DNA from: a virus
Length of the DNA: 42,067 bases
Reading direction: 5' to 3' (one strand)
IMG/VR virus record: IMGVR_UViG_3300031251_000049
Location: 1 to 42,067 of that record
A program made the position numbers and the translations under genes. The notes beneath the pieces were generated by a model. It searched no databases. It was not told where the DNA came from and saw only the letters and a program-made list of their open reading frames with translations. This document shows, piece after piece, positions 26,380-42,067 of this stretch; within the stretch, counting starts at the first letter, position 1, and the number at the start of each line of letters is the position of its first letter.

Positions 26380-26426
26380 CGTTGCGTTGCGTAGCGGCGC
26401 GATGCGGAGCGATGCGGTGCGATGCG
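26380..26426 (-). repeat. CGCNN pentamer element 3
   Basis: On the minus strand nine CGCNN units (AT, AC, AT, TC, AT, GC, TA, AA, AA) end in CGTTTTTAAG, then a purine-rich AAGAAAGAG site before the GTG start of the prim-pol gene at 26358. The first unit begins 4 bp after the stop of the upstream gene. Orientation matches transcription. Confidence 0.85.
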
Positions 26427-29957: not shown

Positions 29958-30178
29958 TGCTGTTCCTCGAATGGCAGGCTATCCCAAGCGTCGTGCGCGC
30001 GCTTCGTCAGCTCGCCGGAGGCGAGCGCTAGAAGCCATGCGGGAACGCAGGCGATAAGCAGCGCGGCGCAAGCGACCAGGGCGCAAAGAACAATCGGGGC
30101 GGCTAGCGCGAAAGCGATCTTTGAGGCCGTCCCGAGCGCTTCGGCGCGGACGCGGGCGCGCGTTCGAGCGGCGCTCAT
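29954..30178 (-). CDS. Small membrane protein in the early block
   Basis: This 74-residue protein starts MSAARTRARVRAEALG, basic at first. A long hydrophobic stretch follows at about residues 20-52 (IAFALAAPIVLCALVACAAL...), one long or two short helices, and an acidic C-terminus (WDSLPFEEQQ). ATG 30178 is preferred because it overlaps the previous stop as ATGA; a TTG at 30187 is also possible. The function is unknown. Confidence 0.6.
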   Translation of the reverse strand: MSAARTRARVRAEALGTASKIAFALAAPIVLCALVACAALLIACVPAWLLALASGELTKRAHDAWDSLPFEEQQ

Positions 30179-30480
30179 TCGTTCCAACCTCTTACGCGCG
30201 GCGTCGGCTTGACGAGTAGGCGCACGGCTTTGCTTTCCTTTTCATAGGGCGCGAGCGCGTCGCCTAGAAGCTCGCGCAGCCCCTTCGTATCGAGGCGCTT
30301 TGACGTGCTTTCAGAGCGCGTGACCGTCCAGCGCTCGCCGGCAATGGCGTCCTCGCCGATGGCGTGAATTTCATCCTTCAATTCGTCGAGCTTCTTTTCG
30401 AGCAGGGCGATCTCTTCTTTGAGTTCGCCGAATTCATCGGCGATGATAGAAGGCGTCCTATTTTTAAGCGCGTAGCTCAT
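30175..30480 (-). CDS. Coiled-coil hypothetical protein next to the nuclease
   Basis: This 101-residue protein has a heptad-patterned helix at residues 17-45 (ELKEEIALLEKKLDELKDEI), then EGER-like WTVTRSESTSKRLD and a conserved-looking end. It overlaps the nuclease gene as ATGA. Phage proteins of this shape are encoded beside recombination nucleases; a partner role is an inference. Confidence 0.6.
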   Translation of the reverse strand: MSYALKNRTPSIIADEFGELKEEIALLEKKLDELKDEIHAIGEDAIAGERWTVTRSESTSKRLDTKGLRELLGDALAPYEKESKAVRLLVKPTPRVRGWNE

Positions 30481-31421
30481 TCCTCTACCTCCAAAACGAT
30501 TGGCTTAGGGTCGCGTCCGTCAACGTAAAGCTCTTGGCCGCTGCGCACGCGAAGATTGTATGTGACCGTTGCCGACCTTTCGTCCGCGTCGATCTGCTCG
30601 CCCGGCACGAGATCGGGAATGTAAAGATGCGAGGCGCAACCGGCTTTTTGCTCTGCAATCGAAAGCGCGCGAAGATGACGCGTGCATTCCCATTCACCAT
30701 GTTTGAGCAAATTGGCGTGCAAGCACGTCAGGCAATTGAAGCGCGGCCAGTCGTCATAGCGACAAATCTTCTCATGCTTGCACCATCGGCAAGCGAAGCT
30801 TTCTTGTTTCGGCGGCGGACGATCCGCGAAGGCGATGCGCTCCGCTTTCGCAACTAACTTTTCTGCAAAGAGCGGATCATATTTGACTCGCTCGCTCTCT
30901 ACTTCATCCGTGTTTTTGTTGTGAGCGAGATAGAGCGCGCGCGTTAGCCCAAGGCCATGCATATATATTTGCATTTGCGCGTAGTGAACCGGTTTCGCCG
31001 CCTCGACGCCTTTTACTTTCCATTCGTCAAAGCTCTTTTGATTGTGTGTCTTGCACTCCAAAAGATGCTCTGTTTTCTCCGCGCCAGGGACGCCGATAAC
31101 GCGCCCGTCAATGTGTCCCGTGAGAATTCCGCGGAGAAATGAAACGTCGTCTTGCGTGCCGTCCACGGAGCAGCCAATAACGCGGAGGTCTCGAATCATG
31201 CGATCCTCTTCGCGGTGGCCGGTTTGGAACAGGCGCTCGACGCGGCCATCGTGACGCTTGAGAGGCGTTGTCCAGCGGAAAGAATACCAGAGCGAGCGCT
31301 CGCACTCTTCGCCGATCTTGGAGCAGCGCAACGTTGCGTCGTCCCGCGGCTCTTGCACGTCGCGATAGTGCGCTTCGATTGCGAGCGCGACGGGCGATTT
31401 CATGGGAGGGACGGGAGCCAT
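30477..31421 (-). CDS. PD-(D/E)XK nuclease, Cas4/RecB-like, with Cys clusters
   Basis: The product is 314 residues. Nuclease motifs are visible: ILTGHIDGRV with Asp105, HLLECKTHN with Glu122 and Lys124, and HYAQMQIYM with Gln149. Cys40 (EECERSLWY) plus CRWCKHEKIC (C211, C214, C220) matches the iron-sulfur arrangement of Cas4/AddB-like enzymes. A second Cys/His group follows (C230, C233, H235, C246). It probably resects DNA ends for recombination. It is encoded with a Sak4-like ATPase and RusA in the same block. Confidence 0.85.
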   Translation of the reverse strand: MAPVPPMKSPVALAIEAHYRDVQEPRDDATLRCSKIGEECERSLWYSFRWTTPLKRHDGRVERLFQTGHREEDRMIRDLRVIGCSVDGTQDDVSFLRGILTGHIDGRVIGVPGAEKTEHLLECKTHNQKSFDEWKVKGVEAAKPVHYAQMQIYMHGLGLTRALYLAHNKNTDEVESERVKYDPLFAEKLVAKAERIAFADRPPPKQESFACRWCKHEKICRYDDWPRFNCLTCLHANLLKHGEWECTRHLRALSIAEQKAGCASHLYIPDLVPGEQIDADERSATVTYNLRVRSGQELYVDGRDPKPIVLEVEE

Positions 31422-31552
31422 TGCGGCAAGCCTCTAGCGTTCGCGCCGAAGTGCGTTCATTCGATCAGGGAAGGGGAAGCGGGGCGCGACGGATGGTCTG
31501 TTTCAACATTACCGACGCGCCCCCACTCACGGTCGCGACCCCATGAGATTCG
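31422..31552. other. Gene-free spacer
   Basis: The spacer between the DUF669-type gene and the nuclease gene, both leftward, holds only very short frames. I see no convincing promoter, terminator or repeat here; it has a weak leftward AGAGG site for the nuclease gene. Confidence 0.5.
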
Positions 31553-32083
31553 TTAGCGCCTCATCCACTTCGGGGCGCTACCGCCAGCCGCGTCGGCCTT
31601 GGGAGGCGCGGCCTGGGAGACGGCTCGCTTCACTTCCTGGCGCGCCTCCGCGACCGGCCGGCCGTCAGCGGGCTGGTAGCGCTTCACGACGTTGCTCGCG
31701 GCGTATTGATCCGTTGCGGGCTGTATCGCGACGCGGATTTCGACCGGGACGCCGTGAAGCTCAGTCGTGTCGTCAAGCGGCCCCTTGAGTCCGACGGCCG
31801 TGCACAGTTCGGCAAGCGCTTGCTGCCCGATGCGCTGCGTGACCTCGTTCGTATGCCGGAAGTTGATCCGGTCCCAAACGCGCCGGTTTTCGAAGTCGCC
31901 TTGAACGATCTTCCAGGTCAAAGTGATCGTCTGCCCGTTGGGGTTTCCGTGGGCGTCCTTCGCCTTCGTGTCGACAATGTCGCTCTCGACAATTTCGGCG
32001 ATGTATTCGCCGGGAGGAACGGGAGAGATATCGTCGCGCGGTTCTACTGTTGAGGCGTCGAAAGCCTCGCCTAGCTGTGCCAT
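31553..32083 (-). CDS. DUF669 family protein, putative single-stranded DNA-binding
   Basis: This 176-residue protein starts MAQLGEAFDASTVEPRDD. The PPGEYIAEIVESDIVDTKAK region, then QTITLTWKIVQGDFENRRVW, then RINFRHTNEVTQRIGQQALA match the DUF669 family, in which members are placed with SSAP/recA-like recombination genes and thought to bind single-stranded DNA. The C-terminus is disordered and ends KWMRR. It is the immediate partner of the Sak4-like ATPase. Confidence 0.8.
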   Translation of the reverse strand: MAQLGEAFDASTVEPRDDISPVPPGEYIAEIVESDIVDTKAKDAHGNPNGQTITLTWKIVQGDFENRRVWDRINFRHTNEVTQRIGQQALAELCTAVGLKGPLDDTTELHGVPVEIRVAIQPATDQYAASNVVKRYQPADGRPVAEARQEVKRAVSQAAPPKADAAGGSAPKWMRR

Positions 32084-32084
32084 A

Positions 32085-32888
32085 TCAGGATGCCTTTTTC
32101 AGTTCGGTTTGAGTCGTGAAGCCGGGAAGGAAAGGCGCAAGCGCGTTGAAGCCTTCCCCTTTCTCGAACTTGAGTTTCGAAGGAAGGCCGTAGCGGTTTT
32201 TCGCGTCGAACGCCGCCCGGCCTTCCGTGTGAATGAAAATCGCACCGCCTCCGTCTGCGATGGCGCGCTCTTTGGAAAATCCAACCTCTTCCTTTTTCAA
32301 GTTCACTCCGGACTTGAGAAGGAAAATGCAATCCATATCGCGCTCGATTGCGCCGACTGAATGCTTGTGCAGGTCGATTGCCCACCGCGAATAGGAGACC
32401 GTCTCAGGATCATCGAAGCGCTCGACGGCGGAATGAGCAATGAGAACGATTGCCAAATCGCGATCACGCCGCAGAGCGTTGAGGCCGTCGAGGAATTCCT
32501 GCCACACACGCTGCGCCAGCACATAGCCCTTGCCGTATCCGAAGTCCTCGATATTCTCTTTCTTGTGCCCCTTATCGTCGCCGCGCTCGCACGTCTCCGC
32601 AAACACAATGCGTTGCAATTCCGTCACGCTGTCGACGACGACGGTTTTGAATTCGTGCGGCGACTCGTATAGCGCCACAATTGCTTGCATCAGTTCGGTA
32701 AAGCTCTTGAGCAAACCAAAGCTCGTAAGCTCAAGATCGCCCGGCGTTCCGTCCTCGATCTGCAAGAAGACGGGAGAAGGGAACGAAGCGGCAAGGGAGG
32801 TTTTTCCCTTCCCAGGCTCCCCATAAATCAAGATGCGAGGCGGCTTGTCGGCCCGCACCTGGCGCAAGTCTGCGAATGATATCGACAC
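32085..32888 (-). CDS. RecA-like ATPase (Sak4-like, AAA_24)
   Basis: The product is 267 residues from a GTG at 32888 (SISFADLRQVRADKPPR). Walker A is YGEPGKGKTS (22-31) and Walker B FKTVVVDSV; a later AIVLIAHSAV fits the RecA-fold sensor strand. Sak4 proteins help single-strand annealing with a partner SSB, here perhaps the DUF669 protein. The GTG is chosen because AAAGGG lies 9 nt upstream; ATG 32951 would add a basic N-terminus. Confidence 0.85.
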   Translation of the reverse strand: MSISFADLRQVRADKPPRILIYGEPGKGKTSLAASFPSPVFLQIEDGTPGDLELTSFGLLKSFTELMQAIVALYESPHEFKTVVVDSVTELQRIVFAETCERGDDKGHKKENIEDFGYGKGYVLAQRVWQEFLDGLNALRRDRDLAIVLIAHSAVERFDDPETVSYSRWAIDLHKHSVGAIERDMDCIFLLKSGVNLKKEEVGFSKERAIADGGGAIFIHTEGRAAFDAKNRYGLPSKLKFEKGEGFNALAPFLPGFTTQTELKKAS

Positions 32889-32998
32889 TTTAGAGCCCTT
32901 TCTTTTTTGAGCCCTTGCATGGTGCGCGCGGGGAACGCGCGAAGGGCTCATTTTCACACTTTTCGGACGTCTCTAAGGTCCGCCCGCCCCGCGCACTC

Positions 32999-33493
32999 CT
33001 AGGCTGCGCCGACTGAGGGAGGCGCAAACTTGCCGCAGCCTCCCCCAGCGCCAGCACCGCGAACCGACGGGAGGACGGTTGCGGAATCGATTTCGCTCAG
33101 TGTGACGATGATCTCGTCCCGATCTCCGTAAGTCTTCTGGACGGTGAGCGAGGCTACCTGCGCGTCGTCGCGATAGACGACGCCGTTCAATGCGTCCTTG
33201 ATGATCTTCGTCAGATTGTCCAAGTCAGGCTTGCTCGTCTTTGGCCGTCCGATGGCGAACTCTTTTTGCCTTTTCGACCACGACGCGGGCGGCTTGTAAA
33301 CGAATCGCGCTTGAAGGATCAGCGCGCTATCGAAAAGCGCTTCGCCATTCATCGCCAGCGCGGCGTTGTCACGAATGAGCTTCATGTATCCGCGCTGCTT
33401 CGGAGGCGTGAAGCGATGATTCGTCATCGTCCCGCCCCTGGCGCGCGCGAAGGCGACCGGCTCGCTCTCGACCTTGAAAATGATCGTTCTCAT
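32999..33493 (-). CDS. RusA-like Holliday junction resolvase
   Basis: The product is 164 residues from ATG 33493. RTIIFKVESEPVAFARARGG, then GRPKTSKPDLDNLTKIIKDA with Asp90 and Asp92, then GVVYRDDAQVASLTVQKTYG with Asp109/110 gives the RusA catalytic set. It resolves four-way junctions during recombination or before packaging. The ATGA overlap with the tiny membrane gene fixes the start. The C-terminal Gly/Ala-rich tail (about 145-164) is extra. Confidence 0.9.
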   Translation of the reverse strand: MRTIIFKVESEPVAFARARGGTMTNHRFTPPKQRGYMKLIRDNAALAMNGEALFDSALILQARFVYKPPASWSKRQKEFAIGRPKTSKPDLDNLTKIIKDALNGVVYRDDAQVASLTVQKTYGDRDEIIVTLSEIDSATVLPSVRGAGAGGGCGKFAPPSVGAA

Positions 33494-33627
33494 TTGCGTG
33501 GCTCTATCCATCGCGCGCCGTCGGCGCTTTCGTGAACCGGCTCCCAAAATGCCGGGAGGAGTGCGGACGCAAGCCCGAGCGCAATCCCGGTAAGGAAACC
33601 AAAAGCAATCCAGGCGGCGGGCCTCAT
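33490..33627 (-). CDS. 45-residue membrane protein
   Basis: A short gene (MRPAAWIAFGFLTGIALGLA...) with one N-terminal hydrophobic segment at about residues 4-26 and a charged C-terminus ending EPRK. It is joined by ATGA overlaps to both the upstream regulator-like gene and the RusA gene, which is strong support for translation. The function is unknown. Confidence 0.65.
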   Translation of the reverse strand: MRPAAWIAFGFLTGIALGLASALLPAFWEPVHESADGARWIEPRK

Positions 33628-33977
33628 CCTTCATTTCCCTCGCTCAGGATTTCACGCGCGCGCTCAATCGCAATCGTCGCTTGCTCCAAAGAAGCAGGAT
33701 CAAAGCGCGTGCGAGATAAGCGAGCCGTGGCAATTTCATGTTCTAAGGCTTTCATTTGCTTTTCAGCCGCAGATTCCACGGCCGCGCAAAGACGGTCGTA
33801 AAGTTCGGCTGATATTGATTTGGGAGGTCGATTGCGCAGCGAATAGAGAAGACCGCTAGGTAGGCCGTAACGGTTTTGCAGGTGCGCGCGCGTCGAATTT
33901 AGATCATTCGAGCGCTCGCTTTCTTCGACAAACGCAGCCATGCGGCGCGCGCTCTCGACATAGGCATGTGCGCTCAT
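33624..33977 (-). CDS. Hypothetical helical protein, first gene of the replication block
   Basis: This 117-residue protein starts MSAHAYVESARRMAAF. The segment YGLPSGLLYSLRNRPPKSIS (about residues 37-57) suggests a helix-turn-helix-like unit, followed by a long charged helix. GGAG lies 9 nt before ATG 33977, but ATG 34016 also has a good GGGAG site and would add 13 residues. This type of phage protein often precedes replication genes. The function is unknown. Confidence 0.6.
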   Translation of the reverse strand: MSAHAYVESARRMAAFVEESERSNDLNSTRAHLQNRYGLPSGLLYSLRNRPPKSISAELYDRLCAAVESAAEKQMKALEHEIATARLSRTRFDPASLEQATIAIERAREILSEGNEG

Positions 33978-34032
33978 TTTTGTTTTCTCCGATTGCGATT
34001 TGAGATCGCAGACCATGTTGCTACTCCCACGC

Positions 34033-34086
34033 TAGAACTCGAATTGCGTAGCGAGTTCTAAAAGCCCCAGGGCCGCAGCCCTGGGG
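34033..34086 (-). terminator. Predicted leftward terminator after the cro operon
   Basis: A 9-bp GC-rich stem (CCCCAGGGC at 34065-34073 with its complement at 34078-34086, CGCA loop), followed leftward by CTTTTAG. Just beyond is a second perfect 9-bp inverted repeat (TAGAACTCG at 34033-34041 and 34052-34060). It lies between the cro-like operon and the replication block. Confidence 0.65.
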
Positions 34087-34139
34087 AAGTCTAGGGAGGA
34101 ACCAAAGAGCGCCGCACATGCGTTGCGGCTCACGCTTCA

Positions 34140-34162
34140 CCCGGCCAGGTCGGAAGGCCGGG
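34140..34162. other. Inverted repeat downstream of the 74-residue gene
   Basis: A perfect 7-bp stem (CCCGGCC and GGCCGGG) with a 9-nt loop, 5 bp past the stop of the leftward gene at 34167. No T-run follows. Together with the two inverted repeats at 34033-34086 it makes three stacked stems in a gene-free 190-bp spacer. Confidence 0.5.
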
Positions 34163-34166
34163 GAAT

Positions 34167-34391
34167 TCAGTAGGGCAGGCGCGCTGCGTTGAAGTCAGGA
34201 TCGGCGCGGCGCGCGTCATGCTCCGAGCGCAGGGCGCGCTCGAATTGGTTGCCGCTCCAAATTTCCATAAGCTCGTCGCAGTTCTCCGCACCGAGCTTTT
34301 TCATAGCGCTGCGAATGTGCGAACAATTGCCCAATCCGCCGTCCGCATAAGCCGCGAGTGCTCGCGCCTCGTCCAAGGAAAGAGAAGTCAT
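34167..34391 (-). CDS. Hypothetical protein of the cro operon
   Basis: This 74-residue protein starts MTSLSLDEARALAAYADG and is acidic and helical. It overlaps the cro-like gene as ATGA and is followed by a terminator, so these two genes form a short leftward operon. It is possibly an early regulator (a CII-like or antirepressor slot), but no family is recognised. Confidence 0.55.
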   Translation of the reverse strand: MTSLSLDEARALAAYADGGLGNCSHIRSAMKKLGAENCDELMEIWSGNQFERALRSEHDARRADPDFNAARLPY

Positions 34392-34615
34392 GATTGAGCC
34401 CCATAGACAGCGCCGTCACCACGCGGCGGCATTGCGATGAAATCCGATGGCGCGATTGCGCCCTCCGTCACACGGAAGATTTTCTGCATTTGCGCGACGC
34501 GCGGAGTGCGCGCGCCGTTGCGCCAATGGTTCACAGCCGTTGCGGAAACGCCGATCTTTTTTCCGAAGGCGTCTTCGGTCAGGCCGGTCAATTTTAGGTA
34601 GGCATCGAGTTTCAT
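34388..34615 (-). CDS. Cro-like repressor (XRE/YdaS-type helix-turn-helix)
   Basis: The product is 75 residues. DAYLKLTGLTEDAFGKKIGV, then SATAVNHWRNGARTPR, is a helix-turn-helix typical of Cro/YdaS. It reads leftward, away from the CI-like gene, under the operator-promoter at 34625-34666. It should repress the lysogeny functions and early promoters when lytic growth begins. Confidence 0.8.
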   Translation of the reverse strand: MKLDAYLKLTGLTEDAFGKKIGVSATAVNHWRNGARTPRVAQMQKIFRVTEGAIAPSDFIAMPPRGDGAVYGAQS

Positions 34616-34624
34616 GAGCCACTG

Positions 34625-34666
34625 AATATAACAATCCGTTATGAGTGTCAATAACAAAATGTTATT
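34625..34666 (-). promoter_or_regulatory. Leftward early promoter with two operators (PL/OL-like)
   Basis: Two ATAAC-N5-GTTAT palindromes at 34628-34642 and 34651-34665 are 23 bp apart centre to centre. The minus strand carries TTGACA at 34651-34646; TATATT at 34630-34625 gives a 15-bp spacer (TATTCA with 17 bp is an alternative -10). The layout is almost identical to the unit at 35054-35094 and drives the cro-like gene. Confidence 0.8.
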
Positions 34667-34726
34667 TGAAAAATAGCGAATTTTCTCAGATATTTAGGAT
34701 GCTTGGAGGCCGACGGAGAGAACCAA

Positions 34727-35008
34727 ATGCCTAAAGCGCAGTTTCACGCCGCGATAAGCGCGGCGATCAAAAGAGCAGAAACGCCGGATTGGGCTCATAG
34801 GCTAAAGCAGGCCCGTGAGATGACAGGGAAGAACTCCACGCAATTCGCAAAGGATGCTGGCTTATCGCAGCCACGATATTCGCAATATGAGACAGGGAAG
34901 CGCGAGCCGGACGCCGAAGCGTGGAGGAAAATTATGGTCAGGCTCCCGGTTAGCCTCGATTTCATTATTTTGGGTCGTGTCACGATTGGAAACGAAACAA
35001 AAAATTAA
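34727..35008 (+). CDS. CI-like phage repressor (XRE helix-turn-helix, no peptidase domain)
   Basis: The product is 93 residues. WAHRLKQAREMTGKNSTQFA, then DAGLSQPRYSQYETGKREPD, is a classic XRE helix-turn-helix (about residues 22-65). It is too short to carry an S24 self-cleavage domain. It lies between the two operator-promoter units, reading right, and should bind the ATAAC-N5-GTTAT operators to keep lysogeny. ATG 34727 is preferred for its GGAGAG site; a TTG at 34703 is possible. Confidence 0.82.
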   Translation: MPKAQFHAAISAAIKRAETPDWAHRLKQAREMTGKNSTQFAKDAGLSQPRYSQYETGKREPDAEAWRKIMVRLPVSLDFIILGRVTIGNETKN

Positions 35009-35053
35009 ATACATTCCGCGCGTTAGGAGAGGCATATTTTTTTGTCCTCCGAC

Positions 35054-35094
35054 ATAACAAATTGTTATTGACACTCATAACATATCGTTATAAA
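35054..35094 (+). promoter_or_regulatory. Rightward early promoter with two operators (PR/OR-like)
   Basis: Palindromes ATAAC-N5-GTTAT lie at 35054-35068 and 35077-35091, again 23 bp apart. TTGACA at 35068-35073 and TATAAA at 35089-35094 are spaced by 15 bp (TAAACA with 17 bp is the alternative). The sequence TTGACACTCATAAC is shared with the leftward unit. It should drive the rightward gene series from 35141. Confidence 0.8.
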
Positions 35095-35106
35095 CAGGAG
35101 TCATCA

Positions 35107-35126
35107 AATCGGCATTCTCGCCGATT
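35107..35126 (+). promoter_or_regulatory. Hairpin in the 5' leader just before the ribosome binding site
   Basis: A perfect 7-bp stem (AATCGGC and GCCGATT, loop ATTCTC) lies directly before GGAGG (35127-35131) of the gene at 35141. It could help or block ribosome access in the early transcript. Confidence 0.45.
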
Positions 35127-35140
35127 GGAGGGCTCAAACG

Positions 35141-35458
35141 ATGTGCGGTCAAATCAATTACAAGCTCGAAGAGTTCAAGCCATTCCGCGCGCAAGGCGCG
35201 GCGCTTGCGATCTTCGTCTATGGCGACGCGACGATTGGGTTTGACGCAAACGGCCAATGGTCCGTTGACGCTCTCGAAATTGATTTCGATGGTGTCGGCT
35301 CAATCGCAATCTGCGAAATGAGCGAGCTTTGGAGGCCGATTGTCTCAGAGCTTCGCCGCGATGGCGGGAGAGCACGCAAGAGCATTGAGGCGAGAATTCG
35401 CGACGAATTGGCTCATAGCCATGGCCGCGAATACGATTATCACGCGGCTGCGGAGTGA
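35141..35458 (+). CDS. Hypothetical first gene of the rightward early series
   Basis: This 105-residue protein starts MCGQINYKLEEFKPFRAQG. A beta-rich N-terminal part (ALAIFVYGDATIGFDANGQW) is followed by DALEIDFDGVGSIAICEMSE and a helical C-terminus. It has a GGAGG site and is the first gene after the rightward promoter, so it should be made early. No family is recognised. Confidence 0.6.
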   Translation: MCGQINYKLEEFKPFRAQGAALAIFVYGDATIGFDANGQWSVDALEIDFDGVGSIAICEMSELWRPIVSELRRDGGRARKSIEARIRDELAHSHGREYDYHAAAE

Positions 35459-35463
35459 TCGCA

Positions 35464-35574
35464 ATGCGAACCGCTCTCCGCATCGCCCTATTGCTGGCGC
35501 TCGCCGCCCTCGCCTGGCTGCATTGGCTTTATCCGACCTGGGTAGAGCCCCTCACAATCATTGATCGGATGTAG
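35464..35574 (+). CDS. 36-residue membrane protein
   Basis: This very short gene (MRTALRIALLLALAALAWLH...) consists largely of one hydrophobic helix at residues 4-24, with an acidic end. It begins 6 bp after the previous stop and ends 3 bp before another small membrane gene. Its position and clean hydrophobic profile suggest translation; there is no independent evidence for it. Confidence 0.45.
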   Translation: MRTALRIALLLALAALAWLHWLYPTWVEPLTIIDRM

Positions 35575-35576
35575 TC

Positions 35577-35726
35577 ATGCGCGAGATCGCAATCTACATC
35601 GTGGCGCTTGTGTTTGTGGCCGCAATCGTGCCGCTGCTCGCATCGCGCATCGCAGAGCAAAACGCGCCGCGCGGCCCGTTCGATTGCGGCCCCGGATACA
35701 TCGTCGCGGGATGCTGGAGCAAATGA
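35577..35726 (+). CDS. 49-residue membrane protein
   Basis: Starts MREIAIYIVALVFVAAIVP, with a hydrophobic segment at about residues 4-22, then a Cys-containing C-terminus (GPFDCGPGYIVAGCWSK). It lies in a run of tiny genes after the rightward promoter. The function is unknown. Confidence 0.45.
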   Translation: MREIAIYIVALVFVAAIVPLLASRIAEQNAPRGPFDCGPGYIVAGCWSK

Positions 35727-35727
35727 C

Positions 35728-35817
35728 ATGCTCGCGCATCACGCAATCACTCTCTTGCACGACGGTCGCGCGCTTGTCGCGGTCTGTCTCGCGATCCTGC
35801 AACACATAGGAGCTTGA
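35728..35817 (+). CDS. Possible 29-residue peptide
   Basis: Starts MLAHHAITLLHDGRALVA and continues with a hydrophobic segment (VAVCLAILQHIGA). It begins 1 bp after the previous stop (TGACATG) and ends 9 bp before a pentamer element. It may be a real mini-gene or a chance frame. Confidence 0.3.
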   Translation: MLAHHAITLLHDGRALVAVCLAILQHIGA

Positions 35818-35826
35818 AGTTTCCTT

Positions 35827-35873
35827 CGCCTCGCCACGCCTCGCTTCGCCTCGCTTCGCCACGCAACGCAACG
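35827..35873 (+). repeat. CGCNN pentamer element 4
   Basis: Nine units: CGC followed by CT, CA, CT, TT, CT, TT, CA, AA, AA, then CGTCG. It begins 9 bp after the previous stop codon. A long hairpin and another element (35941) follow before the next gene at 36013. Confidence 0.88.
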
Positions 35874-35878
35874 TCGCC

Positions 35879-35924
35879 TTCCCGACGGCAAGGGCTTTCT
35901 CAAGAGAGCCCTTCGCGACGGGAA
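35879..35924. other. Long imperfect hairpin between two pentamer elements
   Basis: TTCCCG (35879-35884) pairs with CGGGAA (35919-35924), enclosing AAGGGCTTTC and its near complement GAGAGCCCTT (one G-T pair) around TCAA. No T-run follows on either strand. It separates pentamer elements 4 and 5 and could act as an mRNA structure or a recombination or protein-binding site. Confidence 0.6.
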
Positions 35925-35940
35925 ACCGTCAAAGAACCGC

Positions 35941-35995
35941 CGCTACGCATCGCGCCGCGCCGCAACGCGACGCACCGCAACGCAACGCAACGTCC
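35941..35995 (+). repeat. CGCNN pentamer element 5
   Basis: Ten units (TA, AT, GC, GC, AA, GA, AC, AA, AA, AA), then CGTCCACATAAAGG, which supplies the ribosome binding site of the gene at 36013. The same CGWYCAYATRAARG leader follows elements 6-8. Confidence 0.9.
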
Positions 35996-36012
35996 ACATA
36001 AAGGAAACAAAA

Positions 36013-36579
36013 ATGAGAAACGTCACGATCACAATCGAAGGGCTCACGGCTTACAGCCCGTCGAAATATTTCGAGCCGAGCGTCCAGAAGGGCGAGACGA
36101 AGGACGCGCACGAAAAGCGCCGCTGGCGTGAGAAGGCTCACACGTTCGAAAACGGCGAGGTCTATGTTCCCGGCGTGTCCTTCAAGATGGCGCTAGACGA
36201 GACGGCCGCCCTCTTGAATGAGAAAATCCCAGGCAAGGGAAATCAGACCTGGACGGGCCAATTTGCTACCGGCGTCGTGGCAATGAATGACGTCGGCCTT
36301 GGCGTCAAAATTGGCGATGTGAAGCCAATTCAGATTTTCGCTCACGCGAACGGAAAGCGCGGACCAGGGACGCGCGTCATGCGCTTTTTCCCATTCGTCC
36401 CGTCGTGGCGCGGGACGCTCGAAATGCGCGTCTTTAACGACACGATCCCGGAAGAAGTTTTCGAGCGCTTCTTTGAGCAAGCAGGCTTGCTTGCTGGCGT
36501 TGGCAGAGGTCGGCCGATCACGAAAAGCGCCGCGGGCAACGGAAGATTTAGGCCGGCTAGCTTCGTTTGGTCGGCGTGA
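36013..36579 (+). CDS. Conserved-looking phage protein of unknown function
   Basis: This 188-residue protein starts MRNVTITIEGLTAYSPSKYF. It has a beta-rich start, FENGEVYVPGVSFKMALDET, then a middle with MRFFPFVPSWRGTLEMRV, and a C-terminal Gly-rich region (LLAGVGRGRPITKSAAGNGR). The order of a strand, a PG-S-(F/L)K-x-AL helix, and a C-terminal Gly-rich loop recalls ferredoxin-fold RAMP proteins, but this is a visual analogy only. Pentamer elements abut both ends of the gene, 11 bp after its stop and just before its leader, so it looks like a movable cassette. Confidence 0.65.
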   Translation: MRNVTITIEGLTAYSPSKYFEPSVQKGETKDAHEKRRWREKAHTFENGEVYVPGVSFKMALDETAALLNEKIPGKGNQTWTGQFATGVVAMNDVGLGVKIGDVKPIQIFAHANGKRGPGTRVMRFFPFVPSWRGTLEMRVFNDTIPEEVFERFFEQAGLLAGVGRGRPITKSAAGNGRFRPASFVWSA

Positions 36580-36589
36580 GAGTTTCCGG

Positions 36590-36634
36590 CGCTTCGCGTC
36601 GCAGCGCTTCGCCCCGCAACGCAACGCAACGTCC
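36590..36634 (+). repeat. CGCNN pentamer element 6
   Basis: Eight units (TT, GT, AG, TT, CC, AA, AA, AA), then CGTCCACATGAAAG, which supplies the leader of the gene at 36651. It begins 11 bp after the previous stop. Confidence 0.9.
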
Positions 36635-36650
36635 ACATGAAAGAAAAACC

Positions 36651-37106
36651 ATGAGACCTATATTCACGCAGTCGCTCGAGACGTCAAAGCTTGTCGAGTT
36701 TTTCCGAACTGTGAAAATCGGCGAGAATGTCTCGTTCGAAGCCGCGTCGGCGGCGGTAGGCTTCAAAGTCAGTTCGGCGCTCCCGGCGTATCAAACGTCA
36801 AAGAGGATCGCGGCGCGCGACCACGGCGTCGTTATCGAGGGCGTCAGAAAGTTCGGGTTTACCCGCCTTAGCGGCTCGCAAATGCTCGGATGCGCGCCAA
36901 AGTTTTTCCAGCACGTTCGCCGCGGCTCTAGGCGACAGTCGCGCGTGCAAGAGATCGCCATATCGAGCAACCTTGACCGATCGGAAATGGCCATCGCAAG
37001 CGAGCAACTTGGACGGCTTCGAATTTTAGAGGCCACGACTTCGCCGCTCAAGCCGACAAGCAATCGCCCCGAGCGCGAAGCGCCGGAGGCCATTAGGGCG
37101 AATTGA
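36651..37106 (+). CDS. Phage protein of unknown function
   Basis: This 151-residue protein starts MRPIFTQSLETSKLVEFFRT. The segments GENVSFEAASAAVGFKV and IAARDHGVVIEGVRKFGFTR look like a helical, possibly winged DNA-binding unit, followed by a basic RRGSRRQSRVQEIAI segment. Proteins of this form occur in other phages, but no function is known to me. It is framed by pentamer elements 6 and 7. Confidence 0.6.
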   Translation: MRPIFTQSLETSKLVEFFRTVKIGENVSFEAASAAVGFKVSSALPAYQTSKRIAARDHGVVIEGVRKFGFTRLSGSQMLGCAPKFFQHVRRGSRRQSRVQEIAISSNLDRSEMAIASEQLGRLRILEATTSPLKPTSNRPEREAPEAIRAN

Positions 37107-37114
37107 GTTTCCTG

Positions 37115-37164
37115 CGCTTCGCTTCGCCACGCGACGCAGCGCGCCGCAACGCAACGCAACGATC
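37115..37164 (+). repeat. CGCNN pentamer element 7
   Basis: Nine units (TT, TT, CA, GA, AG, GC, AA, AA, AA), then CGATCATATAAAGGGG, the leader of the gene at 37182. It begins 9 bp after the previous stop. The last part is included in a 47-bp repeat shared with element 8. Confidence 0.9.
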
Positions 37165-37191
37165 ATATAAAGGGGACCAAGATGGCAGACC
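37145..37191 (+). repeat. 47-bp direct repeat, copy 1
   Basis: Bases 37145-37191 are identical to 37375-37421, exactly 230 bp apart. The repeat covers three CGCAA units, the CGATCATATAAAGGGG leader and the first codons (MAD) of the genes at 37182 and 37412. Confidence 0.95.
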
Positions 37192-37400
37192 CACGAGATG
37201 CCCGCATTTCCGAATTAGAGGCACGCATCGAATTCCTGTCGGAGCGCGAGCGCAAGAGAGTATCTAGTATATCAATGCTCAGGCGCACGATTTTTAATCT
37301 AAAAAATGAGCGCGACGCCGCCCTTGACGCTCTCAGCAACGCACCGCCCCGCCACGCAACGCGGCGCAACGCCACGCAACGCAACGCAACGATCATATAA
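37182..37400 (+). CDS. Small coiled-coil protein whose C-terminus is encoded by a pentamer element
   Basis: This 72-residue protein starts MADPRDARISELEARIEFLS, a charged coiled coil (about 8-48). From about residue 53 the coding sequence is element 8, giving SNAPPRHATRRNATQRNAT and then II before the stop inside the next leader. So this gene appears to have lost its own 3' end or gained the repeat. Its N-terminal leader is identical to that of the next gene. Confidence 0.55.
   Translation: MADPRDARISELEARIEFLSERERKRVSSISMLRRTIFNLKNERDAALDALSNAPPRHATRRNATQRNATII
37340..37394 (+). repeat. CGCNN pentamer element 8 (inside a gene end)
   Basis: Ten units (AC, CC, CA, AA, GG, AA, CA, AA, AA, AA), then CGATCATATAAAGGGG. 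It lies inside the 3' end of the gene at 37182 and provides the leader of the ParB-like gene at 37412. Confidence 0.9.
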
Positions 37401-37421
37401 AGGGGACCAAGATGGCAGACC
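37375..37421 (+). repeat. 47-bp direct repeat, copy 2
   Basis: Identical to 37145-37191. Recombination between the two copies would remove exactly 230 bp, that is the small coiled-coil gene, and leave one intact leader before the ParB-like gene. Confidence 0.95.
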
Positions 37422-38206
37422 TCAAATCGCTCGCGGATTCGCGCGGAACGCTTCTCAACTTCGATCCGCGCCGACTCAAAAGCAAGCCGGGACTGAACTC
37501 GCGCGACCTTGAAGCGCCAGACAACAAAGAGCACGTCGAGGCGCTAGCACAATCTATTGCGGCTGTCGGATGGAAGGCCGGGAGCGTGCTAACAATCTTT
37601 GCCGAAGGCGACGACGTATATGTGGAAGATGGAAATTGCCGCCTTGCGGCCGTCATGCTCGCAATATCTCGCGGCGTCGAGATAATCGCAATTCCCTGCA
37701 TTCCAAACACGCGGGGCGTTAATGACGTTGAGCGCGTGCTGGCGCAGACAATCCACAATTCAGGGAAGCGCCTCACGCCGCTCGAGCAAGGCGTGGCGTT
37801 CAAGCGCGCCCTGGCGCTTGGGGCTAGCGTGCAAGATATCGCCGCCAAGGTTGGCAAGAGCGCGACATACGTTTCGCAAATGATCGACTTCCAGGCCGCG
37901 CCGCAAGAGGTTCACAACTTAGTTCGCGAAGGCGTTGTGTCTGCCACGACGGCGGCGCAAGTCGTGAGGCGCGAAGGCGCGCAGGGCGTAGCGAAGCTCG
38001 CCAGGGCCGCGGACGAAGCCAAGATCGCGGGGAAGGCAAAGGTAACGGCGAGTGACATTGCCGAAGATGACGCGCTTTGGAGCGCGTTCCGCAAAGCCAT
38101 CGCGGCGCGCAGAGAGAGGCCAAGCAGGATCGCGGATTCAAATATCCGGCAAGTCGCATGGGAGCTTGGAATTCGGCTCGATGCTTACGAGAGGCAAGCG
38201 CCGTGA
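37412..38206 (+). CDS. ParB/Srx-domain protein with helix-turn-helix
   Basis: The product is 264 residues. The N-terminal part has HVEALAQSIAAVGWKAG and DDVYVEDGNCRLAAVMLA, the ParB-type nuclease/CTPase fold pattern, where DGNCRLAA replaces the usual GERR box. A helix-turn-helix follows (about 125-160, LGASVQDIAAKVGKSATYVS). It may segregate the phage genome, regulate genes or silence the chromosome. It overlaps the next gene as GTGA. No parA partner is present here. Confidence 0.85.
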   Translation: MADLKSLADSRGTLLNFDPRRLKSKPGLNSRDLEAPDNKEHVEALAQSIAAVGWKAGSVLTIFAEGDDVYVEDGNCRLAAVMLAISRGVEIIAIPCIPNTRGVNDVERVLAQTIHNSGKRLTPLEQGVAFKRALALGASVQDIAAKVGKSATYVSQMIDFQAAPQEVHNLVREGVVSATTAAQVVRREGAQGVAKLARAADEAKIAGKAKVTASDIAEDDALWSAFRKAIAARRERPSRIADSNIRQVAWELGIRLDAYERQAP

Positions 38207-38445
38207 TTGTGAACCTCCTATGCTCCGCGCTTGGGGCGGTAGTCATGGCGCTCATTCTCGCTCCACATATGGAACGCGAGTCTCGCGCGTGGTGGCGAGG
38301 ATACTGCGCACGGATCGCAGACGAAAAGGCGGCAAAGGCCGCGAAAGTTTTCGAATTCAAACGGAGAAACGACAATGCTACGCAATCTTGCAATCGCCTT
38401 CATTCTCACCCCAACTCTCGCTTTCGCCTCGACGGGCTGGAATAA
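38203..38445 (+). CDS. Small membrane protein, Rz-like shape
   Basis: This 80-residue protein starts GTG (IVNLLCSALGAVVMALILA), overlapping the previous stop as GTGA. An N-terminal membrane segment is followed by a charged helix (RESRAWWRGYCARIADEKAA). The 3' 71 nt overlap the next gene. The sequence after FEFKRRND may be only a read-through of that next gene's start. Confidence 0.5.
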   Translation: MIVNLLCSALGAVVMALILAPHMERESRAWWRGYCARIADEKAAKAAKVFEFKRRNDNATQSCNRLHSHPNSRFRLDGLE

Positions 38446-38548
38446 CGCCGCTGGCTGCGGAGCGCCTGCGCCTGAGATCGGCGTCGGAATCCTCGGAGCA
38501 ATCCTGAGTGTTGCGGCGGTGCGGTGGTTTCGGAAACGGGGAGAGTGA
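38375..38548 (+). CDS. Small exported/membrane protein with PEP-type C-terminus
   Basis: This 57-residue protein starts MLRNLAIAFILTPTLAFA, a signal peptide, then STGWNNAAGCGAPAPEIG and a C-terminal hydrophobic helix ending RWFRKRGE. The layout, PAPEIG then a helix then basic residues, resembles PEP-CTERM or VPxxD sorting signals. A GGAG site lies 8 nt before the ATG. The function is unknown. Confidence 0.5.
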   Translation: MLRNLAIAFILTPTLAFASTGWNNAAGCGAPAPEIGVGILGAILSVAAVRWFRKRGE

Positions 38549-38551
38549 GAG

Positions 38552-38782
38552 ATGGAAGGTTTGCTAGTCGAGATTGACTACACCAATTGGAAAGGTGAAC
38601 GCGCCAGGCGAGTGATTGAACCGCTTAGGCTCTCGTTTGGCTCGAACGAATGGCACCAAGAGCCGCAATGGCTTCTTGAAGCGATAGACGTTGAGAAGGA
38701 CTGTGAGCGGACTTTCGCACTGAAAAACATTCATGCTTGGACGACGCTGCGCCAGCGCCGCACTCTCGAACAAGGAGGCTGA
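38552..38782 (+). CDS. WYL-like small protein
   Basis: This 76-residue protein starts MEGLLVEIDYTNWKGERARR. The pattern I-x-Y-x-N-x-x-G-E-R-x-x-R, then PLRLSFGSNEWHQEPQWLLE and ERTFALKNIHAW, is common in small phage proteins related to the WYL fold. It may sense a ligand or bind nucleic acid. It is encoded in the accessory block. Confidence 0.65.
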   Translation: MEGLLVEIDYTNWKGERARRVIEPLRLSFGSNEWHQEPQWLLEAIDVEKDCERTFALKNIHAWTTLRQRRTLEQGG

Positions 38783-38783
38783 G

Positions 38784-38822
38784 ATGAAACCGTCGTGGCC
38801 TAACAATGGAGATGGACTATGA
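38784..38822 (+). CDS. Possible 12-residue leader peptide coupled to the next gene
   Basis: MKPSWPNNGDGL is preceded by a strong AGGAGG site 6 nt upstream and ends in TGA that overlaps the ATG of the next gene (ATGA). It may be a real leader peptide giving translational coupling. A chance frame is possible. Confidence 0.45.
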   Translation: MKPSWPNNGDGL

Positions 38823-39196
38823 GCTTTCCGATGAACCCAGGCGGTCACCCAGACCCGGAACCGACGCGCGAGAACGTGGAGCGCGTTGCGAACGCGCTTG
38901 ACGCCATTCGCATATCCATTGGCGATAACGTCATTTGCCACGGAGCCGCACTCTTCCTCCGCGCTCTCCTCGACCGCGCAGAGAAAGCCGAGGAGGAGAA
39001 AGACATTGTTTATTCAGATGCAGAACTATCGGCCGCCGAGCGCGACGCCGCGCGCGCCGAAGGCCGCAAAGCGCTGAGAGAGGCGGCGGCAAAGCTACGA
39101 AGACTTGCTGAGTCCCGCACAGAAGAATGGACAGAGGACGTTCTCGAAATACACGACGCCCTCCTCGCCCTCGCCGACCAGGAGCCAGAGAGATGA
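38819..39196 (+). CDS. Hypothetical Glu/Ala-rich coiled-coil protein
   Basis: This 125-residue protein starts MSFPMNPGGHPDPEPTREN. Helical, highly charged (about 35-115), with heptad character (ERDAARAEGRKALREAAAKL). It has ATGA overlaps at both ends. The function is unknown. Confidence 0.6.
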   Translation: MSFPMNPGGHPDPEPTRENVERVANALDAIRISIGDNVICHGAALFLRALLDRAEKAEEEKDIVYSDAELSAAERDAARAEGRKALREAAAKLRRLAESRTEEWTEDVLEIHDALLALADQEPER

Positions 39197-39405
39197 CCCC
39201 CGAGCAGCTAGAGAGAGACGTAGCGAAGGCGATACGCATTCGAGACACAACAGATGAATTTGCAATGGCCCGCGCTGCGCTCGCTGTGGCGATTGAGGCT
39301 GCGGCGAAGACAATCGAGGATTGGCCGACGCTCGACGTTTGGCGCAGCGATGGAGCCGCCGGCATCCGCGCTCTCCTGCCCGCGCGCAAAGAGGGCCGCG
39401 ACTGA
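39193..39405 (+). CDS. Hypothetical helical protein
   Basis: This 70-residue protein starts MTPEQLERDVAKAIRIRDTT. ATGA overlap upstream, and TGATG with the excisionase-like gene downstream. It is acidic and helical; no family is recognised. Confidence 0.55.
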   Translation: MTPEQLERDVAKAIRIRDTTDEFAMARAALAVAIEAAAKTIEDWPTLDVWRSDGAAGIRALLPARKEGRD

Positions 39406-39827
39406 TGCGCCGCCACGCCGCAACGCAAACTGATATCGCAGACGACACGCCGATAAGGCTTGCCGACGCCGCGTCTCTGGCTTTTCCACAAGGCGGGATG
39501 ACGGTTTGCGGACTTCGGAGGGAGGCCGCGAAAGGGAGGCTTGCTATTTCGCGCATTGCCGGCAAGGATTATACGACTCTTGCGGCAATCAAGGAAATGA
39601 TCGAACTATGTCGCGTAAAGCCAAAGGCGCGAGACTCTGGCTTCGTCCAGCCGAGAGAGACCGCGCGGCAAGATGGATCATCAGAGACGGAAGCCGGCAA
39701 ATTAGCACAGGTTGCGCTCCGAACGAAGTTGGCTGCGCTGAGAGAAGGCTCGCAGAATACATCGCGTCGAAGCACGCGCCGCAAAGGCGAGAGCGCGACA
39801 TTGCTAAAATTCCAATCGGCGACGTAA
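39405..39827 (+). CDS. Excisionase-like helix-turn-helix protein
   Basis: This 140-residue protein starts MRRHAATQTDIADDTPIRLA. LADAASLAFPQGGMTVCGLR then REAAKGRLAISRIAGKDYTT then LAAIKEMIELCRV has the layout of a MerR-type excisionase DNA-binding domain, followed by a long charged tail. It overlaps the integrase gene by 220 nt in another frame. It probably directs excision with the integrase. Confidence 0.75.
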   Translation: MRRHAATQTDIADDTPIRLADAASLAFPQGGMTVCGLRREAAKGRLAISRIAGKDYTTLAAIKEMIELCRVKPKARDSGFVQPRETARQDGSSETEAGKLAQVALRTKLAALREGSQNTSRRSTRRKGESATLLKFQSAT

Positions 39828-40696
39828 TTGCTATCTATCTTGCAGACGTCGCGCCTCGACAAGCGCGACCAGAGAAAGCGATTGAACGCGCCGGACGGCT
39901 AAATGATTTCTTCGGCGCGAAGATGCTTTCGGAGATCAGCGGGAGCGAGTGCCGGGCTTATGGGGAATGGAGAGGGAATGCGGGCGGTGCGCGCCGCGAC
40001 CTGCAAGACCTTGCCGCCGCGATCAATCATCATGCGAGAATGGGTTTTCACAGGGAAGTTATTTATGTCCCGCTTCCCGAGCGCGGGAAGGCGCGCCAGC
40101 GCTGGCTCACGCGAGGCGAGGCCGCGCGGCTCTTGTGGGTTTGCTGGCGCACGCGCGAGGCGCAGGAAGGCCGTGACACGCGAAAGCGACCGCTGCGCCA
40201 CCTGTGCCGCTTCTTGCTCTTAGGGCTCTATACGGGCTCGAGGCCGGGCGCGATCCTAAATGCCTCTTGGCTCCCTGGTCCCGGCCTATCGCACGTCGAT
40301 TTGGATAGGGGAGTTTTTCACCGTCACGCGGACGGCGCGCGCGAGACCGCCAAGCGCCAGCCGACCGTCAAGCTATCGTCCAGGCTCGCGGCTCATTTAG
40401 AGCGCTGGAAGAGCCTCGACGGGGCGCGCAGGGTCTACGTGGTGGAGTTCGGGGGCCGACCCATATCGAGCATCAAAACGGCTCTAGGGCGCGCCTGTGG
40501 CCTCGCCGGGCTCGACGCTGGCGTGACAGCCTACACGCTGCGACACTCTTGCGCATCGTGGCTTGTGGCGAAGGGATTGCCGACGCGGAAAATTGCAGAG
40601 TTTCTCGGAACGAGCGAGCAAATGATTATCGCGCATTATGGCCATCTTGCGCCAGACTACCAAGACGAAGCCGCGCAGGCCATTGGGTTTAAATAG
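39608..40696 (+). CDS. Tyrosine recombinase integrase
   Basis: The product is 362 residues from ATG 39608. Catalytic boxes: GLYTGSRPGAI with Arg212, YTLRHSCASW with Arg312 and His313, FLGTSEQMI, and AHYGHLAPDY with probable nucleophile Tyr344. The usual HxxR His is Tyr309 here, and the LGH His is Thr335. It integrates the phage into a tRNA gene; attP lies 65 bp downstream. ATG 39608 lies inside the excisionase gene, and the frame upstream is out of context. Confidence 0.92.
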   Translation: MSRKAKGARLWLRPAERDRAARWIIRDGSRQISTGCAPNEVGCAERRLAEYIASKHAPQRRERDIAKIPIGDVIAIYLADVAPRQARPEKAIERAGRLNDFFGAKMLSEISGSECRAYGEWRGNAGGARRDLQDLAAAINHHARMGFHREVIYVPLPERGKARQRWLTRGEAARLLWVCWRTREAQEGRDTRKRPLRHLCRFLLLGLYTGSRPGAILNASWLPGPGLSHVDLDRGVFHRHADGARETAKRQPTVKLSSRLAAHLERWKSLDGARRVYVVEFGGRPISSIKTALGRACGLAGLDAGVTAYTLRHSCASWLVAKGLPTRKIAEFLGTSEQMIIAHYGHLAPDYQDEAAQAIGFK

Positions 40697-40714
40697 TGCG
40701 CGAATCTGTGCGCG
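40696..40714. promoter_or_regulatory. Putative arm-type integrase site, left of the attP core
   Basis: GTGCGCGAATCTGTGCGCG matches 40893-40910 apart from one missing base. The two copies stand on either side of the attP core, as expected of P and P' arm sites for integrase. Confidence 0.55.
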
Positions 40715-40760
40715 AACATTTCTACGAATGTCGGAATGATAAGCAAACTATTGAGATCAT

Positions 40761-40806
40761 TGGTAGGCCGGGAGGGACTTGAACCCCCAACCAGACCGTT
40801 ATGAGC
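40761..40806 (-). other. attP core: 3' half of a CAU-anticodon tRNA (Met or Ile2)
   Basis: The minus strand reads the anticodon loop CTCATAA, then CGGTC, a T-arm (GGGGG TTCAAGT CCCTC), CCGGCCT and ACCA, that is a tRNA from anticodon loop to 3' CCA. The 5' half of the tRNA is absent, so it is not a complete gene. This is what a phage carries to restore the target tRNA after integration. Which of the two tRNAs is meant cannot be told from this fragment. Confidence 0.88.
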
Positions 40807-40892
40807 GGCTTTGCGGCAATGAAACGCAGCGAAAACGGCCGCATTTCATATGGTCTTGAGCGCTATCGTTCCGCTTTTGTTGCGCTCAAATT

Positions 40893-40910
40893 GTGCGCAA
40901 TCTGTGCGCG
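40893..40910. promoter_or_regulatory. Putative arm-type integrase site, right of the attP core
   Basis: GTGCGCAATCTGTGCGCG, the second copy of the site at 40696-40714, on the other side of the core. The 218-bp gap between integrase and the tail gene (40697-40914) holds only the core and these sites. Confidence 0.55.
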
Positions 40911-40914
40911 CCCT

Positions 40915-41460
40915 TTAGGTATGGTCAATCGTGGCTCTAAAATTGATGCGAATGGTTGCGACTGTGAGCGTATTTCCGCCGTCCGTGATTTTTAGCTCGC
41001 AATAGTGGACGCCAGGGAGGATCGCCAGCGTATCGGATCGCACCAGAGAAACGGTCGCATACCAATCGCCAGAGACCTGCGCGAGCGACGCCGTTTTCGT
41101 CAAGAAAGGCGTCTCACCGTTGACCGGATCGGATGAATTGCCGATTGAGAATTTCCCGGTCGGAGACGTATAGGAAGCCGGAAGGCCGTTATCTTTGCAA
41201 AGAAATTTCATCGTGAAGTCGTCGCCGGCGCTTCGGATCAACAGCGCATTGTCATACGGCATAGGATCGCCCTCGGTAGAGGTCGCAGGATCTGCCGCGA
41301 CGTAAAACGTCGAGGTCGAGTCCGCGAATTGGGAGAATTGCGAAGCGCAGTCCGCGCTAAGCGCAAATTGGGACGTCGTGTCGGCGGCGCAATAAAATAC
41401 CCGTGAGGGCGTTGTAATTGCGCCAATAACATCTAAAAGCTGGCGAAGCGGGAGAAGCAT
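40915..41460 (-). CDS. Putative baseplate/tail protein (BppU N-terminal-like)
   Basis: The product is 181 residues from ATG 41460 (MLLPLRQLLDVIGAI). A Ser/Thr/Ala/Gln-rich N-terminal stalk (about 20-60) is followed by a beta domain: MPYDNALLIRSAGDDFTMKF, then TPFLTKTASLAQVSG, then LAILPGVHYCELKITDGG. That resembles the N-terminal beta domain of BppU baseplate proteins. It is the last gene of the late leftward series before attP. The short variant starting at its internal MPYDNALL is possible. Confidence 0.6.
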   Translation of the reverse strand: MLLPLRQLLDVIGAITTPSRVFYCAADTTSQFALSADCASQFSQFADSTSTFYVAADPATSTEGDPMPYDNALLIRSAGDDFTMKFLCKDNGLPASYTSPTGKFSIGNSSDPVNGETPFLTKTASLAQVSGDWYATVSLVRSDTLAILPGVHYCELKITDGGNTLTVATIRINFRATIDHT

Positions 41461-41465
41461 ACTGA

Positions 41466-41939
41466 CTACACGAGCCCTTGCGCGGAGAGATCGGCTTGCG
41501 TGTAGGGCCATTGCTTCCCATCGGCCTGCCACAATGGGATATTGACCGCCCAAAGCGCCTCTAGCTGAGAGACAATCCCAGCCGTTACGCCATGCGTCGC
41601 CCCGTCAAGCGCAAGCGTCGACAAGCTCGACGACAGGGCTGAGGCGATTGTCGCGTTTGACGTCGAGAATACCCCTTGAGGCTGCGCCAGCACGAAGCCA
41701 ATGAAGTTCTTCGCTCGAGTCACCGCGTTAGGGTTTGCTCCGTTCGGAGGCGACGTGGCGTAGCTTTTCAAGCTATCGAAAACGAGATTGAGCGCCAGCA
41801 ACGCGACGACAGAGGACACGGTAACATCGCGCATACCTCCGCTCGTCGTCATCGCGTTGACGAGCGCAAGATTCTGGTCCGCCGTGTTCGACGGGTTAGC
41901 GGCTTTCACCGCGTTATAAGCGTCGCTCAGTATCGTCAT
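41466..41939 (-). CDS. Hypothetical late protein beside the fibre gene
   Basis: This 157-residue protein starts MTILSDAYNAVKAANPSNTA. A long helical part (LVNAMTTSGGMRDVTVSSVV...) has little charge. It lies 9 bp after the stop of the large fibre-like gene and before the BppU-like gene. Its composition fits a virion-associated protein, but no family is recognised. Confidence 0.6.
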   Translation of the reverse strand: MTILSDAYNAVKAANPSNTADQNLALVNAMTTSGGMRDVTVSSVVALLALNLVFDSLKSYATSPPNGANPNAVTRAKNFIGFVLAQPQGVFSTSNATIASALSSSLSTLALDGATHGVTAGIVSQLEALWAVNIPLWQADGKQWPYTQADLSAQGLV

Positions 41940-41948
41940 GACGAGCCC

Positions 41949-42067
41949 TCACACATAAAGGATGGTGCCGACGATGGTATTCGCCGCAGCGAGAGCCGTT
42001 GTGTCATTAAGCGCTGGCGCTCCCGTGATCGCGTATCCGACGCCAAGCGTGAAATAGTCGCCGATAT
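41949..42067 (-). CDS. C-terminal end of the fibre-like gene (continues from position 1)
   Basis: The frame is open from the right end of the window to TGA at 41951-41949. After removing the 33-bp overlap, 42034-41949 adds 28 codons to the gene at 1-1459. Its last residues (AATTALAAANTIVGTILYV as read from the circle: ALNDTTALAAANTIVGTIL then YV) end in TGA. This part is the final segment of the same protein, not a separate gene. Confidence 0.75.
   Translation of the reverse strand, partial: IGDYFTLGVGYAITGAPALNDTTALAAANTIVGTILYV
42035..42067. repeat. Terminal direct repeat, right copy (circular closure)
   Basis: Identical to positions 1-33. See the left copy: the circle has 42,034 unique bp. 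Confidence 0.9.

Follow-up and report, generated by a model that had tools for sequence, protein, structure and literature searches.

The window, i.e., the whole analysed stretch of 42,067 nucleotides (IMG/VR record IMGVR_UViG_3300031251_000049), contains eight arrays of tandem CGCNN pentamers, each comprising 8–10 units when fixed AA units are counted and each finishing with two or three AA units and a CG. We consider it highly probable (about 0.92) that these arrays are guides of a VIPR (Viral Interference Programmable Repeat) system, that the two copies of a 47-bp direct repeat are constant 3' ends of such guides, and that the guides are bound by a Vipr protein and target DNA by a code in which one nucleotide is skipped. 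VIPR is the subject of a 2026 preprint (PMC13142463), according to whose main text the system combines a small RAMP protein (Vipr), a Vap protein and vrRNAs. The latter are described there as 9–16 pentamers with a constant GGY triplet and hypervariable NN, followed by an invariable 3' tail; they are read by a 1-nt-skip rule, and phage SUSP1, which carries a type II VIPR (the SUSP1/P. fulva form), served as an experimental model (PMC13142463).

The 47-bp repeat and the pentamer arrays

A perfect direct repeat of 47 nt with an offset of 230 had been noted in a preliminary description of this DNA, and it is indeed present as a maximal exact match (Table 1); its anatomy, i.e., pentamers, leader, ribosome binding site (RBS) and first codons with one small gene enclosed, had also been recognized correctly. 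Seventeen of its bases are (CGCAA)3CG. The other 30 (ATCATATAAAGGGGACCAAGATGGCAGACC) are non-repetitive and include an RBS and the initial codons of both gene C and the ParB-like gene. To the right of the match the copies diverge immediately (11 of the next 40 bases are equal), and to its left lie similar, non-identical pentamers (21/30 bases equal). The earlier description had missed that both copies are the ends of longer arrays (arrays 4 and 5) and that the window holds six further ones. All repeated 25-mers inspected in the window are explained by the 47-bp repeat, barring those that stem from the overlapping ends of the circular record.

Table 1. Position of arrays, repeat copies, genes and neighbouring elements in the window
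Feature	Position	Strand	Remarks
Guide array 1	35827–35873	+	CT CA CT TT CT TT CA + AA AA; strong hairpin next
RNA hairpin after array 1	35874–35940		fold z −3.4
Guide array 2, gene A leader	35941–35992	+	TA AT GC GC AA GA AC + AA AA AA
Gene A, Vipr-like RAMP (Cas7/Csm3-like)	36013–36579	+	188 aa; AF2 model, PDB matches, profile match to SUSP1 Vipr
Guide array 3, between genes A and B	36590–36631	+	TT GT AG TT CC + AA AA AA
Gene B, Vap1-like accessory	36651–37106	+	151 aa; winged-HTH-like N-terminal part; family profile match to SUSP1
Guide array 4, gene C leader	37115–37161	+	TT TT CA GA AG GC + AA AA AA; 3' end opens repeat copy 1
47-bp repeat, copy 1	37145–37191	+	(CGCAA)3CG + tail/RBS + first codons of gene C
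Gene C, small ORF	37182–37400	+	72 aa; coiled-coil-like
Guide array 5, ParB-like gene leader	37340–37391	+	AC CC CA AA GG AA CA + AA AA AA
47-bp repeat, copy 2	37375–37421	+
ParB-like gene (phrog_1033)	37412–38206	+	outside the conserved module
Orphan guide array, antisense between tail genes	10139–10185	+	AT CG TT AG CC AT CA + AA AA
Orphan guide array, upstream of terminase genes	21871–21922	−	CC CC CA CC CT AT AC + AA AA AA
Orphan guide array, leader of 757-aa replication-type gene	26380–26426	−	AT AC AT TC AT GC TA + AA AA
Inverted repeat flanking HTH repressor gene	34622–34665 / 35054–35097		44 nt, 84% complementary
Likely att site	40762–40806	−	3' end of tRNA-Met-like gene, beside integrase

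Five of the arrays are clustered within 35827–37391 and three are located elsewhere in the window. CGC is constant throughout and NN is hypervariable save for the fixed AA units at the 3' end, leaving 5–7 variable units (10–14 bases) per guide. When CGCAACGCAACGCAACG was searched with up to three mismatches, the window gave 28 matches compared to 0.69 in shuffled sequences. The three orphan arrays lie far from the VIPR genes, and TTTTCAGT is common to two tails. Five arrays stop just 5' of an RBS and start codon. Among the tails in the window, one pair is identical and another is 75% identical. A conserved tail structure was not found, with the exception of the hairpin following array 1; hairpin-like sequences were also seen 3' of arrays in four other loci (L041, L052, L082, L083). 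An Rfam search of the window yielded no match, and evenly spaced long direct repeats of the kind that form a CRISPR repeat-spacer array are absent from 30000–42067.

Genes A and B and their association with arrays

The window appears to be the full circular genome of a temperate phage, linearized at an arbitrary position: bases 1–33 are repeated as 42035–42067, an integrase adjoins a tRNA-like att sequence, and the GC content is 58%. A copy of the likely att site with one mismatch occurs in two of 190 alphaproteobacterial genomes, and the 44-nt inverted repeat looks like a pair of operators.

Gene A has no match in Pfam and only one weak PHROG of unknown function. Its AF2 model (pLDDT 87) matches type VII and type III CRISPR effector chains in the PDB with an E value of 2e-6 (Foldseek), and a type III-A Csm chain is retrieved by VIA with a Z score of 12.1 (3.7 Å over 161 residues). 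By these matches, the protein is predicted to adopt a RAMP fold like the Csm3/Cas7 subunits of CRISPR effectors. Its C-terminal end carries conserved GxGRxRP and NGRF motifs. Gene B was modelled as a winged-HTH-like domain followed by helices; its PDB matches are weak, none reaching an E value of 0.001 or better. The last codons of gene C are read from array 5, with the stop codon in the tail of that array. The ParB-like protein has no relatives in viral contigs (pattern scan) or in the array loci, and the gene was rejected as a member of the module since it is missing from other array-bearing loci.

When a profile of the gene A family was run against the SUSP1 genome, the only significant match was ALH47069.1 (E 7e-9), which is encoded between two GGYNN arrays, and the best match of the gene B profile was the adjacent ALH47068.1 (E 6.6e-6). 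Because the two profiles thus pick the SUSP1 vipr-vap1 pair, we conclude that the window holds a VIPR system with a CGC triplet. The window shares with VIPR a phage-encoded small RAMP, homology to Vipr, an adjacent vap gene and a constant triplet combined with hypervariable NN. The window and the majority of homologous loci have CGC where type II has GGY, and the system is therefore filed as VIPR, not as type II. As far as the preprint's main text describes the SUSP1 type II system (PMC13142463), it resembles the window in having a single small RAMP gene and a DNA-binding vap1 homolog in a phage, as well as flanking arrays of tandem pentamers whose NN is hypervariable and which carry a tail, and a relative of the window's system shares with it 1-nt-skip targets in other phages. 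The window differs from the account given there (PMC13142463) in that CGC takes the place of GGY, the last two or three NN are fixed as AA, each guide has only 5–7 variable units, arrays double as gene leaders, and three arrays are far from the locus. That main text does not mention a CGC triplet and speaks of 'GGY/NN motifs, or a related consensus' (PMC13142463; supplement aside), so that CGC-type VIPR is new relative to the 2026 description unless the supplement of the preprint lists CGC. A RAMP fold in the guide-binding subunit (VIA Z score 12) is also a feature of Class 1 CRISPR-Cas systems (type III Csm3, type VII Cas7). In contrast to these, no cas operon was seen near the locus and no repeat-spacer array was found, and the guide has the form of a gapped pentamer code.

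When viral contigs were scanned at the DNA level alone for the array end CGCAACGCAACGCAACG, 93 loci were retrieved; the window was added to the counts. Of the 47 sequences whose arrays have six or more units, 41 encode homologs of A and/or B, which were found independently by protein search, compared to 1/47 of those without such arrays (Fisher's test, calculated with the last cell lower by one locus, P about 1e-18); as the counts include near-copies and loci from one contig, the true weight of the association is smaller than this P value, albeit large all the same. Across 951 interior units from related arrays, the entropy amounts to 0.24, 0.58 and 0.10 bits at C, G and C, respectively, and to 1.96 and 1.97 bits at the N positions, with the NN pair reaching 3.89 of 4 bits; the final two or three units are mostly AA. 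The gene A/B pair recurs with arrays in many phages. In the relatives L081 (which equals L130), L082, L131 and L132, gene A is 76–81% identical, and arrays lie ahead of A, in the interval separating it from B, and past B, the same places as in the window, with different NN. Loci L130–L132 lack both gene C and the ParB-like gene; apart from array-encoded residues, gene C is not found in L081/L130 and L131. In four loci (L088, L090, L046, L017) CGCNN arrays occur on stretches without gene A or B, which may lie beyond the stretch, and very long arrays of up to 54 units in L036, L008, L045 and L066, in which CTC or CAC replaces CGC at intervals, possibly represent overlapping guides. The exact pattern of array end plus tail was found nowhere in viral or genome contigs, named phages gave no match to the locus, A or B by blastn/tblastn, and a plasmid search returned one weak partial match.

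A decoded guide and the proposed mechanism

A guide could be decoded in locus L103 from Paracoccus litorisediminis, whose Vipr is 40% identical to gene A and whose array at 5910–5964 is the best-defined long guide (variable pairs GA CC CT AT GA CG GT AC CT GT). When 395 genomes of its family were searched with a 1-nt skip and up to two mismatches, it gave 20 matches, as compared to three for the reversed pattern. Four of these 20 matches are exact and three have one mismatch; those of the seven whose loci were retrieved fall within the gene for the terminase large subunit. In viral contigs, the same reading gave 24 exact 20/20 matches against a chance expectation of about 0.07, a value scaled simply from a 16-base pattern with 19 matches in the same collection. 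All 24 are in the terminase large subunit gene, in frame, and encode DPLIERVTLV, the skipped base always being the third in the codon; as a contiguous 20-mer, the guide has no match in viral contigs. The scans of the large collections covered skip 1, the reversed pattern and the contiguous reading. What the decoded guide targets is a DPLIERVTLVKP stretch that is conserved in the terminase large subunit (L154–L177; L125, L127). This one guide, taken together with the rule stated in the main text of the preprint (PMC13142463), is strong evidence, at the sequence level, that CGC/NN arrays would use the 1-nt-skip code.

A match of the same guide with three mismatches in its own genome sits in an unrelated ORF and was discarded. 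The other long guides (L041, the second guide of L103, and L106) gave no targets. Neither did the guides of the window in the searches made with them, their 10–14 variable bases being too few for unguided searches: array 2 extended by one AA unit had 19 matches in viral contigs, which is about the random number. The family of the att-sharing genome, in which targets of the window's guides were also sought, is represented by one genome only, and the attempts were negative. A comparison of all guides with all fetched loci at skips 0–3, for which the database was too small, gave no excess over shuffles.

Beyond what is established by sequence, namely the array form, the association with A and B, the homology to SUSP1 vipr/vap1, the RAMP fold and the relative's decoded target, gene A, a single-domain RAMP, would oligomerise along each array RNA and grip its constant CGC. 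Base-pairing with DNA would be left to the variable NN: each pair would match positions 1 and 2 of a target triplet, the next pair those of the next triplet, every third base being skipped, and binding would silence genes of competing phages with the assistance of gene B (Vap). For the phage of the window, expression of the arrays as RNA, binding, silencing and the identity of its own targets are postulated. Several arrays at the same time serve as mRNA leaders with an RBS in the tail, and a separate RNA product is putative.

Origin of the repeat and other explanations for the arrays

The 47-bp copies are best explained as the constant 3' ends of two guide-RNA arrays that lie next to each other, each end being made up of three AA units and the tail. 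Tail sharing within a phage is common: 27% of same-phage array pairs have at least 60% identity in the 20 nt after the array, compared to 2% between phages, and tails are near-identical within each of L083, L060, L032 and L063. The 47-bp repeat ranks among the strongest examples, and it is special in that the shared tail also holds an RBS and four codons. For this reason, the identity of the 30-nt tail, leader and first codons most likely stems from recent duplication or gene conversion of the 3' part of one guide onto the neighbouring gene. The earlier suggestion of a duplicated 5' end is accordingly a fair reading for these 30 nt, and the pentamers are guide repeats instead. A 230-bp deletion by recombination, which had also been proposed, would indeed remove gene C and leave the ParB-like gene a leader; it would, in addition, delete or fuse a guide.

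The possibility that the repeat marks a modular cassette boundary, with leader and start segments serving as recombination sites at which small genes are gained or lost, can be judged by the comparison of relatives that had been recommended. Gene content 3' of gene B and its array does vary, with gene C followed by the ParB-like gene in the window, a 65-aa ORF in L081 and an HNH-like protein in L131, and the exact identity of 30 nt past the array, first codons included, fits such a boundary as well. To this extent the earlier proposal is partly supported. Mosaic gene content is, however, usual in phages, and arrays are also kept before A and between A and B, where no gene exchange was seen. 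The pentamers themselves are not a cassette border, because guide repeats precede A, separate A from B and follow B in relatives, with different NN each time, and such arrays are not plain homology blocks. As the relative's decoded target points to another function, we regard a cassette boundary as unlikely. TRAP, an oligomeric RNA-binding protein, binds (G/U)AGNN sites. In TRAP-bound leader RNA, as in the window, triplets are separated by two free bases and lie in a leader 5' of the RBS. The five arrays that end directly before an RBS and start codon could by this likeness be mRNA sites at which a protein controls downstream translation. Yet triplet and protein are different, the partner being a RAMP, some arrays are antisense (10139–10185) or have a hairpin or another array behind them instead of a gene, and NN carries sequence information, encoding a 20/20 phage target in the relative. 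Regulation as the main role is thus very improbable, and autoregulation could be a side function of the arrays. Neutral expansion of CGCNN simple sequence plus recent local duplication, as tandem pentamers in a GC-rich genome might suggest, is hardly credible given that the triplet is kept while NN is near-maximally variable, that the arrays are strictly associated with gene A, and that the decoded terminase target of L103 contradicts it in relatives.

A tree of 48 Vipr sequences contains a supported group (96/81) of 38 rows, 33 with CGC, one with CTC and four without a triplet call, and both the window and L103 fall within it; outside this group are GGC, CAC, AGC, CTC and one CGC system. Among the Vipr homologs L101–L120, the constant triplets are CGC, GGC/GGY, CTC (L108, L120), CAC (L118) and AGC (L115), and in L115 one array is duplicated exactly. 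The constant triplet has probably changed more than once, long-branch rows being uncertain. We lean slightly towards the view that the Vipr family has diverged with respect to the triplet recognized (a large clade reads CGC; GGY/GGC, CTC, CAC and AGC occur elsewhere, and one CTC is nested in the CGC clade), giving different and possibly mutually independent scaffolds for one 1-nt-skip code, and that guides of the CGC clade are also placed in ordinary phage gene leaders genome-wide.

VIPR was reported only in 2026 and, according to the main text of the preprint, was tested on GGY guides (PMC13142463). The independent sequence test presented here indicates that the 1-nt-skip code is also valid for CGC/NN guides and that the target is the terminase of rival phages. 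With the terminase gene read at codon positions 1 and 2, most synonymous changes would give no escape. A repeat that resembles a cassette border can thus be part of a guide RNA. The swap of triplets within the family means that the rule of scaffold recognition can be tested directly, and it may be a source of independent guide systems.
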